NCBI GenBank assembly: GCA_027022065.1
Contig: JALVZS010000189.1
Coordinates: 1 to 6,818 of the forward strand
Source: a bacterium
GTDB taxonomy: Bacteria > Thermosulfidibacterota > Thermosulfidibacteria > Thermosulfidibacterales > Thermosulfidibacteraceae
DNA length: 6,818 bases
Reading direction: 5' to 3'
Shown here: one piece after another, positions 3,032 through 6,818 of the stretch
Numbering within the stretch: the stretch's first letter is position 1
Layout of the letters: every line of letters begins with the position of its first letter
Notes under the pieces: generated by a model
Told to the model about the DNA's origin: nothing
Database searches by the model: none
Seen by the model: the letters and a program-made list of their open reading frames with translations, nothing else
Program-made: the position numbers and the translations under genes

Positions 3032-3360
3032 CTCTTGAATCCCTCCTTTTCCAGAAACTGTATAATTTGCTTTCTCAGTTGATCCTTTGTAAGCTCGCTT
3101 TTCCAACCAACGTACAGGCTGCCAGGTTCCTCTCCGCAATCTGAAAAGCTTTCTCTGATCCTTGGCCCTTCGTATGGCTCTCCCAGTATTTGGTTCAACT
3201 TCTTGACAAAGTCCTGTGCAGCGAAACCCGAGGGAACTATCTCGCAGTTTACGAGGTTGTCGTATATGGTGAGGCTTGCCTGATAGGGGATCCTTTGATC
3301 CTCAAAGAGGGCGGTTATATATGTGCAGCGTTCTGTTACTTTTTCTCTTATTCTCCTCAT
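3028..3360 (-). CDS. Conserved-looking hypothetical protein, 110 aa
   Basis: I do not recognise the family. The protein is soluble (no signal peptide or membrane segment), with a basic N-terminus ([11 protein letters not shown]) and three cysteines (C12, C39, C75). A middle stretch reads as alternating strand and helix ([18 protein letters not shown], then a helix around 47-59). The C-terminal helix (91-107) is charged and amphipathic, and a GWKSEL segment precedes it. It is very likely real: the ATG at 3360 overlaps the trmI stop as ATGA, an AAAGGTGG ribosome binding site lies just upstream, and its own stop overlaps the start of the MBL-TPR gene in the same way. The position suggests co-translation with a tRNA methyltransferase and a hydrolase. 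A role in RNA modification is only a guess from the neighbours. Confidence 0.8.
3041..3050 (-). promoter_or_regulatory. Ribosome binding site fixing the MBL-TPR start
   Basis: AAAAGGAGGG on the minus strand is a near-perfect Shine-Dalgarno sequence, 9 nt before the ATG at 3031. It lies inside the end of the 110-aa coding region. It is the main reason for preferring this start over the longer in-frame option at 3139. Confidence 0.75.
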
Positions 3361-4118
3361 CTTTCCACCTTTCTTGCAAAGACTAAGTAACCTGTGTGGG
3401 CATTCATAATGTCGTCGGGGCGCAGTCTGTCTGGATTTATTTTATACCTTCTAAGCAGTATCTCACATACCTCGGACACACAGAACCCCCTTTCCAGGGC
3501 CTTCAGCAGCGAGGATACCTGATTGGCCGTAGGAAGCAGAAAGCCCACAGGATGCCCTGGCTTTAAGGACTGCCAGACAGAATCAAGCAGAGTCTCGGGG
3601 GTTTTAACATCTATAAAGACTGCGTCAACATCCCTTTCGTCAAACCCCTCTTCTCCTCTTTTCACCTTAAATGTAACGGGGAGGTCAAATCCTGTTCTTT
3701 TAAGGTTTTCCTTTGCAAGCTCTATAAACTCGCTTCTCATGTCGTATGAGTAGACTCTTCCGAAGGGATGAGCGGCAAAGGCTAGCACGGTGGTTAGGGA
3801 CCCTGATCCTGTTCCACACTCAATTACTCTGCAGCCAGAGGTTATACCTAGCCTTAGCACTATATACCCTGCATCTTTGGGGTATATGATCTGTGTCTTT
3901 CTTTTTACCCGCTTTACGAAATCGTAAATTGTGGGTTTAAGTGCAAAAAACACTTCGCCTTTGCTTGATAGTACTGAACACCCAAACTCTCTTCCTATAA
4001 GTGAACCTACATCAATATTCCCCCTGTGGGTTCCAAATACCTTACCCTTTTGGACCTGGATCATAAACTCTTTTCCCTCTGGAGAAACAAGAAGCACAAA
4101 ATCTCCTTCCCTTATCAT
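3357..4118 (-). CDS. trmI: tRNA (adenine-N1)-methyltransferase TrmI (m1A58)
   Basis: Transfers methyl from S-adenosylmethionine to N1 of adenine 58 in the tRNA T-loop, a modification that stabilises tRNA in thermophiles; the family works as a tetramer. With the ATG at 4118 the protein is 253 aa, typical of bacterial TrmI. The N-terminal beta domain (1-60, starting [15 protein letters not shown]) is followed by [12 protein letters not shown] (76-87) and the SAM-binding loop [12 protein letters not shown] (98-109). The catalytic aspartate motif is FIDVKTPE with D170. C-terminal signatures are [10 protein letters not shown] (192-201) and RPDD...[10 protein letters not shown]. An in-frame TTG at 4148 would add ten residues with no match to the family and no ribosome binding site. 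It is the first gene of a minus-strand operon and overlaps the next by ATGA. The usual tryptophan after DxxxP is glutamate here. Confidence 0.93.
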
Positions 4119-4129
4119 GCTTTGCTTTG

Positions 4130-4135
4130 TATTAT
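4130..4135 (+). promoter_or_regulatory. Predicted -10 element of the bioD operon
   Basis: TATTAT on the plus strand overlaps by five bases the TATAAT used in the opposite direction. A start near 4142 would give a 25-nt leader carrying AAGGGG (4154-4159 region), 8 nt before the bioD ATG. The hexamer 17 nt upstream (TTCCCT, 4107-4112) is a weak -35. The assignment rests on position and the lack of a better candidate in this short gap. Confidence 0.4.
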
Positions 4136-4136
4136 A
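4131..4136 (-). promoter_or_regulatory. Predicted -10 element of the trmI operon, near-leaderless
   Basis: The minus strand reads a perfect TATAAT here, 12 nt before the trmI ATG at 4118. Initiation 6-7 nt downstream would leave a leader of only about 5 nt, with no room for a Shine-Dalgarno sequence and none visible. No good -35 sits at 16-18 nt: a TTGATA exists upstream but with only a 13-nt spacer. The promoter is therefore plausible but incomplete by consensus. Confidence 0.5.
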
Positions 4137-4166
4137 GGAAGAAAGCAAATATCAAGGGGTTAATGG

Positions 4167-4835
4167 ATGGGTGGAATTTTTATCACAGGTACAGATACGG
4201 GAGTGGGAAAGACCTTTGTGGCCTGCGGACTTATAAAGGGATTTAGGGAGATGGGGTTAAGGGTTGTGCCCTTCAAACCCGTAGAAACGGGATGTCCCGA
4301 CTACCCCATGGACGGAAGAGCACTAATAGAGGCATCGGGCATTGATTTGAGTTATGATTTAGTGGTTCCCTACCTCTTTAGGGAACCTTTGGCTCCGTCT
4401 GTAGCTGCTAGGCTAGAGGGAAGGCAGATAGATTTGTGCTTCATAAAAGAAAGATTTAAAAAGCTGGAATCTATGGGGGATTTAGTGGTTGTTGAGGGAG
4501 CTGGCGGGTTGCTGGTTCCCATTGCCGGAAGATTCACCTATGCGGATCTTGCCGTCTTTCTTGATCTGCCTCTGATTGTGGTTGCAAGAAGCAAACTAGG
4601 CACCATAAACCACACGCTTCTTACACTGAGGGTGGCCAGGGCTTATGGGCTTAAGGTTTTGGGGGTGGTGCTTAATATGTACGAGGGGGCTGATACCGCG
4701 GAAAGGACCAATCCAGATGTGATAAAGGAGCTTGGTGGATGTGAGGTTTATTTGGTTGAAAGGTGCGATGAGGTTCCGACCTTAAAAAGGCTTGCTGAGG
4801 CTGTATATGAGGGTTTGGGGCGTATTAGCTCCTGA
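4167..4835 (+). CDS. bioD: ATP-dependent dethiobiotin synthetase BioD
   Basis: Closes the ureido ring of 7,8-diaminopelargonate with CO2 and ATP to give dethiobiotin, the penultimate step of biotin synthesis; cytoplasmic homodimer. The 222-aa length is normal. Motifs in order are the P-loop GTDTGVGKT (8-16, with K15 and T16), KPVETG (37-42, substrate lysine K37), the Mg-coordinating candidate D49 in PMDG, EGAGG (110-114), and the adenine-side NMYEG...TNPD region (170-184). The ATG at 4167 follows AAGGGG with 8-nt spacing. The P-loop lies right at the N-terminus, as the family requires. It is the first gene of the plus-strand operon, and its last 29 nt overlap the FliK-like gene. No other biotin gene is in the window, so the cluster is split, or the other bio genes lie elsewhere. 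Confidence 0.96.
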
Positions 4836-5952
4836 GCAGGTAAGGGAGCTTGTAAGAAGCAAAGCCCTTCTTACGGGTAAGGTGCTTTCTGTTGATGGTG
4901 ATAGGGTGGTTATAGACTTTGGGGAATTTGTGGGGGAGGGGGTTTGGGAGGCTTCCCATGCCCTGCCGAATAAAGGGGATGTGGTTGTTGTTAGGGTGAA
5001 AGAGGAGGGGCCACCTGTGGTTTTGAGCTTTGTAAGGAGGATAAAAACAGCGGAGAAAGAGATACCTGTAAGGAGATTCGCAGAGCTCCCTTTAGATGTG
5101 CCTGAAAGGGAAGTTAAAGAGCTTGCAGCCTTTATAAAGCTTGCAGTGAAGGTTGCAGAACAAGGCTCAGAAGCCCACGTGGGAGGGAGATCCGGAACCT
5201 TTTTAGAAGGTGAGCTTTTAAGTGCTATGTTGAACTTGGAGGCCTCCCTTGGGGAAGCTTTAAAGGGCAAAAGTATAGAAAATTTTTTTGGTGCCTTTAG
5301 AGACTTTGTGCTTGTTGCTTCATCTTTGGTTGCCGATGAGGAGGTTAAGGAGCTTGCGTCTAGCTTACCTGAAATTTTTACTCGTTCGGAGGTTCCCGTT
5401 ATTAAAAGGCTCTCTCTAAAACTAAGAGGGATCCTGCCAGAGGTTGATGATCTAATTGATAGATTTGCAGATGTGGTTCAAGATAGCTCAGAAGGCAATT
5501 TGAGGAGCCTTTTAAAGGCTGTAAAGGATGTTAAGGAACATATAGGGCTATTGGTTGAGAGATCCTCTTCTAGCTCAAAGCAGGCTACCAATATCTATGC
5601 GTTTTCTTTTCCTGTAATTGTTGAAAAAAGAAGGTTTCTAACCACCTTGGCCGTAGAGCCTGAGGCCTCAGGTGCTAAAAGGGTGTTTGTGGTGCGAATG
5701 TTGATAAGGGAAGAGGATATGGGGGCTTTGAGAATAGACATGAGCTATGCTCCTGATGCTGGTAAACGCTTGATAGTAAGCATTCAGGCGAGTTTAAAAA
5801 GTACAAAGGAAGAGCTTGAAAAAAGAAAAGAGAAGCTTGCAAGGGTCCTTTCTTCTCACGGGTTTGTTCCCTCCTTGAGCTTTTACCACAATCCCAAGAT
5901 TGATGAGCTTTCTTTCCCTGTTATATCTTCCTCTCTAGAGGTGAGGGCATGA
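4807..5952 (+). CDS. FliK-like (flagellar hook-length control C-terminal domain) protein
   Basis: A 381-aa protein with no signal peptide, resembling FliK/YlqG-type proteins. The N-terminal domain (about 20-78) is beta-rich ([20 protein letters not shown], then [20 protein letters not shown]), like the GxV..v.gxxV...G segment found in long FliK relatives. A helical middle follows (about 95-250) and then a serine-rich linker, ERSSSSSKQ (251-259). The C-terminal part (about 262-365) has the Flg_hook pattern: [14 protein letters not shown], a RLIVSIQAS strand, a long helix [19 protein letters not shown], and [10 protein letters not shown]. That domain in FliK contacts the FlhB cytoplasmic domain, and the next gene encodes just such a domain. 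The ATG at 4807 has GAGG 6 nt upstream and overlaps bioD by 29 nt; the TTG at 4792 lacks this support. The stop overlaps the next start as ATGA. Assignment is by pattern only; overall identity to FliK is low. Confidence 0.65.
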
Positions 5953-6200
5953 AGAAGGCAGTGGCTTTAAGATACAAGAGGGGGGAGGATAAGGCTCCAA
6001 GGGTTGTTGCAAAAGGAGCCGGTAGTCTTGCGAAGAGAATCATTGAGATAGCCAAAAAGCACAATATTCCCATTGAAGAAGATCCATCACTTGCCGATGC
6101 TCTTTTCAGACTGGAGCTTAACCAGGAGATACCTCCTGAGCTTTACATGGCGGTGGCGGAGGTGTTGGCCTTTGTTTACTCCCATAAAAAGAGGAGGTAG
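5949..6200 (+). CDS. FlhB-like C-terminal domain protein (FhlB/YlqH type)
   Basis: An 83-aa protein that is essentially the cytoplasmic tail of the flagellar export gatekeeper FlhB, without the membrane part. The line [20 protein letters not shown] (5-24), the [22 protein letters not shown] helix-turn segment (31-52) and the end [19 protein letters not shown] (59-77) follow FlhB closely. It begins where FlhB's self-cleavage product would begin: MKK replaces the PTH of the NPTH site, so the protein resembles a pre-cleaved FlhB-CC fragment. The ATG at 5949 overlaps the FliK-like stop as ATGA and is preceded by GAGGTGAGG. FlhB-CC in flagella binds FliK during the switch to late substrates, so the two proteins probably interact. 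A specific function for stand-alone forms is not known to me. Confidence 0.88.
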
Positions 6201-6586: not shown

Positions 6587-6818
6587 CTATCTAACGAGGG
6601 AACCATATACCCACCCTATTCTACCATCGGGAAGCTCTATCTGATACCACCTGCCCTGCTTGCCTATGGCCTTTACACTGGTGCCTCTAACGAGCGAGGT
6701 TATTATGGGATAGTTTGTTCCGGGACCTTTCCTTATGTTTACCCTGCTTCCCGCTATGGTGATGTATCGGGCTTCTTCAAAGGCCACATACCTTGCTTGG
6801 GAGCTACTTTTGTATCCG
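6587..6818 (-). CDS. SH3b-domain protein, C-terminal part (5' end outside window)
   Basis: The C-terminal 77 residues of a protein whose frame stays open to the window edge. Residues from RYITIAGSRVNIRKGPGTNY through RGTSVKAIGKQGRWYQIEL to DGRIGWVYGSLV form one complete bacterial SH3 domain, with the hallmark N-(V/I)-R-x-GPGT-x-Y and the final GWV.GS. Such domains bind cell-wall peptides or glycans in secreted or periplasmic proteins. A GTG at 6787 could start a 66-aa protein but has no properly spaced ribosome binding site. The residues before it (GYKSSSQARYVAFEE) read as a linker, so a longer protein, perhaps with another SH3b unit, is more likely. The TAG stop at 6589-6587 is directly adjacent to the TGA of the convergent gene. 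Confidence 0.85.
   Translation of the reverse strand, partial: GYKSSSQARYVAFEEARYITIAGSRVNIRKGPGTNYPIITSLVRGTSVKAIGKQGRWYQIELPDGRIGWVYGSLVR

Follow-up and report, generated by a model that had tools for sequence, protein, structure and literature searches.

The 6,818-nucleotide stretch of DNA analysed here (the window), which is the entire contig C189 of a MAG of 1.57 Mb and 88% completeness, carries two overlapping genes that probably constitute a second, dispersed export-specificity switch pair. FlhX would serve as an exchangeable C-terminal (CC) domain of the export-gate protein FlhB, and FliK2 as its cognate partner. The pair strictly co-occurs with the flagellar export gate and is not independent of flagella. 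Both FlhX itself and a locus combining flhX with fliK have been reported before.

Locus and flagellar gene complement

The features of the module and its surroundings are as follows.

4807..5952, + strand: FliK2, a FliK-like T3S4 protein of 381 aa (ORF; Flg_hook E 0.02; profile-profile comparison with canonical FliK, E 6.5e-12)
4855..5052, + strand: N-terminal OB-fold domain of FliK2, about residues 17-82 (structure model m1c7bbe41a339)
5596..5892, + strand: C-terminal FliK/T3S4 switch domain of FliK2, about residues 264-362 (model of residues 249-381)
5935..5949, + strand: LEVRA, the C-terminal pentapeptide of FliK2, motif phi-[DNE]-x-x-[AVIT] (motif counts across ORFs)
5949..5952, + strand: ATGA, stop/start codon overlap of FliK2 and FlhX, translational coupling (sequence)
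5949..6200, + strand: FlhX, a stand-alone FlhB C-terminal (CC) domain of 83 aa (PF01312, TIGR00789 and PDB 3b1s_B matches)
4167..4835, + strand: bioD, dethiobiotin synthase (TIGR00347, E 1.8e-54); a neighbour, outside the module
6603..6818, no strand: dovetail overlap with contig C133 (216 bp, 99.5% identity, end to end)

The 4-nt ATGA overlap at 5949-5952 confirms the coupled arrangement described in a first-pass annotation of the window, and the start codon of FliK2 is backed by homologues in two sister genomes (G001 and G002). Upstream, the 3' end of bioD overlaps FliK2 by 29 nt, an overlap seen again in both sister genomes, so that the description of the pair as locked to bioD is accurate at this level; bioD is retained as neighbour only inside the family (G000-G002, G000 being the MAG itself) and not elsewhere. 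A TrmI/GCD14-type tRNA methyltransferase gene (3357-4148, - strand) lies divergent from bioD (4167-4835, + strand), an order kept in G001 and G002. The ORF downstream of FlhX, previously taken to encode a secreted protein, is not conserved in the two sister genomes, both of which carry a convergent lytic-transglycosylase-like gene in its place. The proposal that bioD and a secreted neighbour point to a non-flagellar role is not supported. In G002, from a sister genus (contig C148, L032:1846-2880), an opposite-strand ORF for a 344-aa P-loop ATPase-like protein splits FliK2 from FlhX, an apparent insertion.

The pair had been described as lying outside any visible flagellar cluster. This is correct for the window, but contig C133, dovetailed to its 3' end, carries flgB-flgC-fliE-fliF. 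By arithmetic across the dovetail, about 6.5 kb separate flgB from flhX, a distance that includes several non-flagellar genes. The MAG moreover holds fliPQR-flhB-flhA-flhF-flhG, a FliA-type sigma factor, cheB and fliM, as well as flgFGAHI-flgJ-flgM-flgN-flgK-flgL-fliW and fliG-fliH-fliI (names partly from reading sequences). Full-length flhB (348 aa) and flhA are located on contig C151. Neither FlgD (PF03963) nor a separate FlgE-like Flg_bb_rod match was detected in the four genomes of the order with flagellar genes (G000-G003). As the G000 contig ends inside fliI and FlgD/FlgE are undetected, the usual place of fliK-flgD-flgE is probably unassembled there; an assembly gap after fliI accounts for the absence of FlgD/FlgE in G000, albeit its recurrence across G000-G003 is odd. 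The FlgL-like proteins of the order are unusually long, at about 1155 and 1124 aa (L054:8720-12187; L060:1835-5209).

Identity of FlhX and FliK2

FlhB is cut at its NPTH motif, and the CC part remains bound. FlhX matches the C-terminal part only of Bac_export_2 (PF01312 profile positions 262-335, E 7.7e-28), and solved FlhB-CC chains match it down to E 6.2e-19 (PDB 3b1s_B). Since residue 4 of FlhX aligns with residue 5 of the cleaved chain 3b1s_B, FlhX starts at the autocleavage site and is without the membrane part. The initial reading of this gene as a free FlhB cytoplasmic domain that needs no autocleavage is borne out. Against the NCBIfam model flhB_rel (TIGR00789) FlhX scores 111.8 bits, below the curated cut-off of 117.35 bits, and is accordingly no formal member; it should be noted that only 2 of the 389 surveyed genomes reach this cut-off. 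The match of FlhX in PHROGs arises solely via a long FlhB-like family, and no viral relatives were found.

In a tree built from 79 free FlhB-C copies and 15 FlhB-CC domains the two kinds form separate groups, all 15 FlhB and only 2 free copies lying on one side (modest support of 0.65-0.85). The FlhX of the window groups with the free copies, and the organism's own FlhB (C151) with the FlhB group. The separation argues for one old paralogue and not repeated truncations. One free copy, in genome G035 (contig C57, L125), is located directly downstream of full-length FlhB and groups with FlhB in the tree; it is probably a local duplicate. A recent truncation of the genome's own flhB as origin of FlhX was rejected on the basis of the tree. 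In full-length FlhB of the order, the NPTH of the autocleavage site is replaced by NPVE, NPIE or NPTE (L031 = G000:C151, L012, L016), and the residues after NP vary in other genomes too. Loss of the motif in the own FlhB (NPVE) as cause of the free copy was likewise rejected, as NPTE, NPVH and NPDH variants exist; NPTE is also present in genomes that match with full-length FlhB alone.

FliK2 opens with an OB fold, continues through a helical middle part and closes with a T3S4 domain of FliK/PscP type; the last residues of the protein are LEVRA. The Flg_hook profile (PF02120) gives 15.2-18 bits (E 0.02, or 0.003 genome-wide), under the gathering score of 29.8, and FliK2 is the sole Flg_hook match in the MAG. 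The sister-genome homologues, of 260 and 264 aa, reach E 1.4e-4 and 0.009 with Flg_hook. The profile is also matched, at E below 0.01, by 28 of 42 aligned FliK2 proteins, namely that of the window and 41 named homologues whose genes precede a free FlhB-C. Comparison of the FliK2 C-terminal profile with a profile of 20 canonical FliK proteins (hhalign) provided a probability of 97.5 and an E-value of 6.5e-12. The last 133 residues (249-381) were modelled with a mean pLDDT of 81, up to 97 in the core. The best of 996 re-aligned PDB chains is the PscP SS domain 5cuk (Z 7.0, 80 aligned, rmsd 3.3); FliK-C (2rrl) gives Z 4.9 and was ranked first by Foldseek (prob 0.93), the Foldseek E-values being weak. 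Profiles and model together indicate that the C-terminal domain of FliK2 is a T3S4 fold related to FliK-C. The homologue and family matches, the profile-profile comparison and the fold therefore confirm the FliK identity of FliK2 despite the sub-threshold Pfam score. The C-terminal Flg_hook pattern reported at first is upheld by the profile-profile and fold comparisons, Pfam alone being suggestive.

FliK2 is nevertheless a FliK paralogue and not the canonical hook-length ruler. This assignment is based on the OB-fold N-terminus, on the absence of the OB segment from 20/20 canonical FliK proteins, and on the position of the gene beside bioD. The N-terminal model shows a small five-stranded barrel, matched by many OB folds at Z 6-7; by profile iteration the OB segment was found in 27/47 FliK2 proteins and 0/20 canonical FliK. 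Because a folded OB domain sits where canonical FliK has its ruler region, the role of FliK2 may differ from that of canonical FliK. The terminal pentapeptide phi-[DNE]-x-x-[AVIT] was present in 37/47 FliK2, 10/20 canonical FliK and 7/384 unrelated ORFs; allowing S at position 2 as well, it ends 41/42 proteins of the named FliK2 set. FliK2 shares the T3S4/substrate-specificity-switch fold and the hydrophobic-D/N-x-x-A/V end with canonical FliK (PF02120; 2rrl) and injectisome PscP/YscP (5cuk), from which it is set apart by the OB fold at its N-terminus, by the weaker match to Flg_hook and by its position adjoining FlhX. At position -2 a charged residue (R/K/E) is usual in FliK2, as opposed to a hydrophobic one in canonical FliK/PscP.

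Distribution of the pair and its known relatives

The survey covered 389 genomes, the own MAG included, nearly all at least 90% complete. A TIGR00789 match was found in 171 genomes and FlhA in 176; all 171 have FlhA. Free (short) FlhB-C is present in at least 79 of the 171 genomes with an FlhB-family match, and FlhA in all 79, whereas the matches listed include no free FlhB-C from any of the 213 FlhA-less genomes. Together with the flagellar gene set of the MAG, this speaks against the earlier suggestion that the pair works without flagella or modulates another export system. Judged from the matches listed, FlhX is absent from more than half of the flagellate genomes in the sample. The pair is not confined to complete flagellar operons either: in the surveyed set it is usually dispersed, outside such operons, yet always in flagellate genomes. 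Its neighbours vary by family, with bioD in the present case as against rnhB and sucC in Bacillaceae, while pair and flagella stay.

A Flg_hook match was found directly upstream of free FlhB-C in 47 of 80 genomes, or about 49 of 80 after adding FliK2-profile matches; in about 30 of 80, about a third of the free FlhB-C copies, no recognisable FliK2 lies upstream. A second, separate Flg_hook match elsewhere, usually stronger, accompanies the pair in 41 of 47 genomes (median 62 vs 31 bits). In an independent named set, FliK2 precedes 51 of the 56 free copies having an upstream ORF. By record titles this set includes Bacillaceae, Brevibacillus, Alicyclobacillus, Butyrivibrio, Thermodesulfovibrio, Syntrophobacterales, Aquificales and Campylobacter concisus, among others. 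Over both sets, loci with FliK2 directly upstream come from Bacillota, Nitrospirota, Aquificota, Campylobacterota and genomes of Desulfobacterota type. The genes overlap or lie within 50 bp of each other in 42/46 survey pairs, with an overlap of -4 in about 12/46 and also in many Bacillaceae.

The anticipated likeness to Bacillus ylqG-ylqH is seen in both gene order and ATGA-type overlap. In Bacillaceae an RNase HII-like gene (rnhB, recognised by position) is followed by FliK2, FlhX and then sucC (MNIHEYQGK start), with 4-nt overlaps, so that the homologous pair lies between rnhB and sucC; FliK2 is longer there (about 420-690 aa) and the neighbours are different. FlhX is a named component (PMC9321776, PMC10746217). 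FlhX/FlhB2 proteins (H. pylori HP1575, C. jejuni Cj0848c, B. subtilis YlqH; TIGR00789) are likewise of about 80-90 aa, comprise FlhB-CC only, without membrane domain, and coexist with full-length FlhB from a location outside the main flagellar cluster. The window's FlhX differs in scoring just below the TIGR00789 cut-off (111.8 against 117.35 bits) and in its linkage to bioD. Wand et al. (2006) reportedly describe HP1575, going by their title, as a 'spare part' for FlhB-CC. Nitratiruptor has been listed with an flhX-fliK locus (PMC9321776), in which, as in the window, the two genes are found together and apart from the large flagellar cluster. The N-terminal 36 residues of C. jejuni Cj0849c act as an export signal for the Yersinia flagellar system (PMC2764114), and the neighbouring flhX is Cj0848c (PMC4894983). 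From locus tags and position, and from a homologue in C. concisus (L159), we infer that Cj0849c is a FliK2. As its N-terminus directs flagellar export, the analogy suggests that FliK2 is exported. In the literature searched, no account was found of the OB domain, of the conserved end or of how widely the pair occurs.

Proposed role of the pair in the export-specificity switch

Salmonella genetics indicate that FliK ejects the CC domain of FlhB, and its last five residues have been proposed to act on CC (PMC13344023). Against this background, the pair most likely tunes the hook-to-filament switch. FlhX, sized and bounded like autocleaved FlhB-CC, would dock on the membrane/CN part of FlhB and replace CC; docking at this site is most plausible because size and boundary equal those of the autocleavage fragment. 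FliK2, translated from the same mRNA in a coupled manner, would be the cognate FliK-type partner of FlhX, and its T3S4 domain and last five residues may recognise FlhX or FlhB-CC. This recognition, in turn, would time the exit of the export gate from hook mode. An exchangeable CC with its own FliK fits the locus because a gene for a ready-cut CC overlaps that of a FliK paralogue with a conserved end. A more far-reaching version appears rather doubtful, namely that the pair is a dedicated second switch in which FlhX, loaded by FliK2, refills the site after canonical FliK has ejected CC, and the gate is kept in or returned to hook mode. If true, the 'irreversible' switch would be resettable in bacteria with the pair.

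Several other readings were weighed against the exchangeable-CC proposal. FlhX could be a cytosolic holder or decoy that binds the C-terminus of FliK2, blocks its export or early action, and never joins the gate. The frequent pairing and the overlapping genes, typical of a protein and its binding partner, are in line with such a role, as is the lack of a membrane part. The coincidence of the FlhX boundary with the FlhB cleavage site, however, speaks for the gate, as does the H. pylori 'spare part' title, which is said to report substitution in FlhB function. Furthermore, FliK2 was not recognised beside FlhX in about 30 of 80 genomes, and we consider the decoy unlikely. It is improbable, too, that FliK2 is the organism's only FliK, acting as hook-length ruler and switch after relocation from the flagellar cluster, with FlhX as its adjunct. 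FliK2 is indeed the sole Flg_hook match in the MAG, and likewise in G001 and G002, but the separate, usually stronger FliK in 41/47 pair genomes (median 62 vs 31 bits) argues against this reading, and with the G000 contig broken in fliI and FlgD/FlgE undetected the usual place of fliK falls into an assembly gap. As the stretch from fliI to flgE is missing from the assembly, FliK2 is not claimed as the only FliK. A non-flagellar role, be it in another export system or jointly with bioD, would agree with the location of the pair outside flagellar operons and its overlap with bioD, but it is hardly credible: none of the 213 FlhA-less genomes has a free FlhB-C among the matches listed, and the neighbours change between families while pair and flagella remain.

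For the window, the outcome is a good annotation and no new system. For flagellate bacteria in general, a free FlhB-CC together with an OB-fold FliK paralogue emerges as a widespread unit of overlapping genes that goes with flagella, a canonical FliK usually being present as well, and its FlhX half is present in nearly half of the sampled flagellate genomes, among the matches listed. Recent work equates the switch with the FliK-driven loss of FlhB-CC (PMC13344023). As one gene of the pair supplies that very domain and is expressed along with a FliK, the pair offers a direct and testable way into how the switch is set, held or reset.
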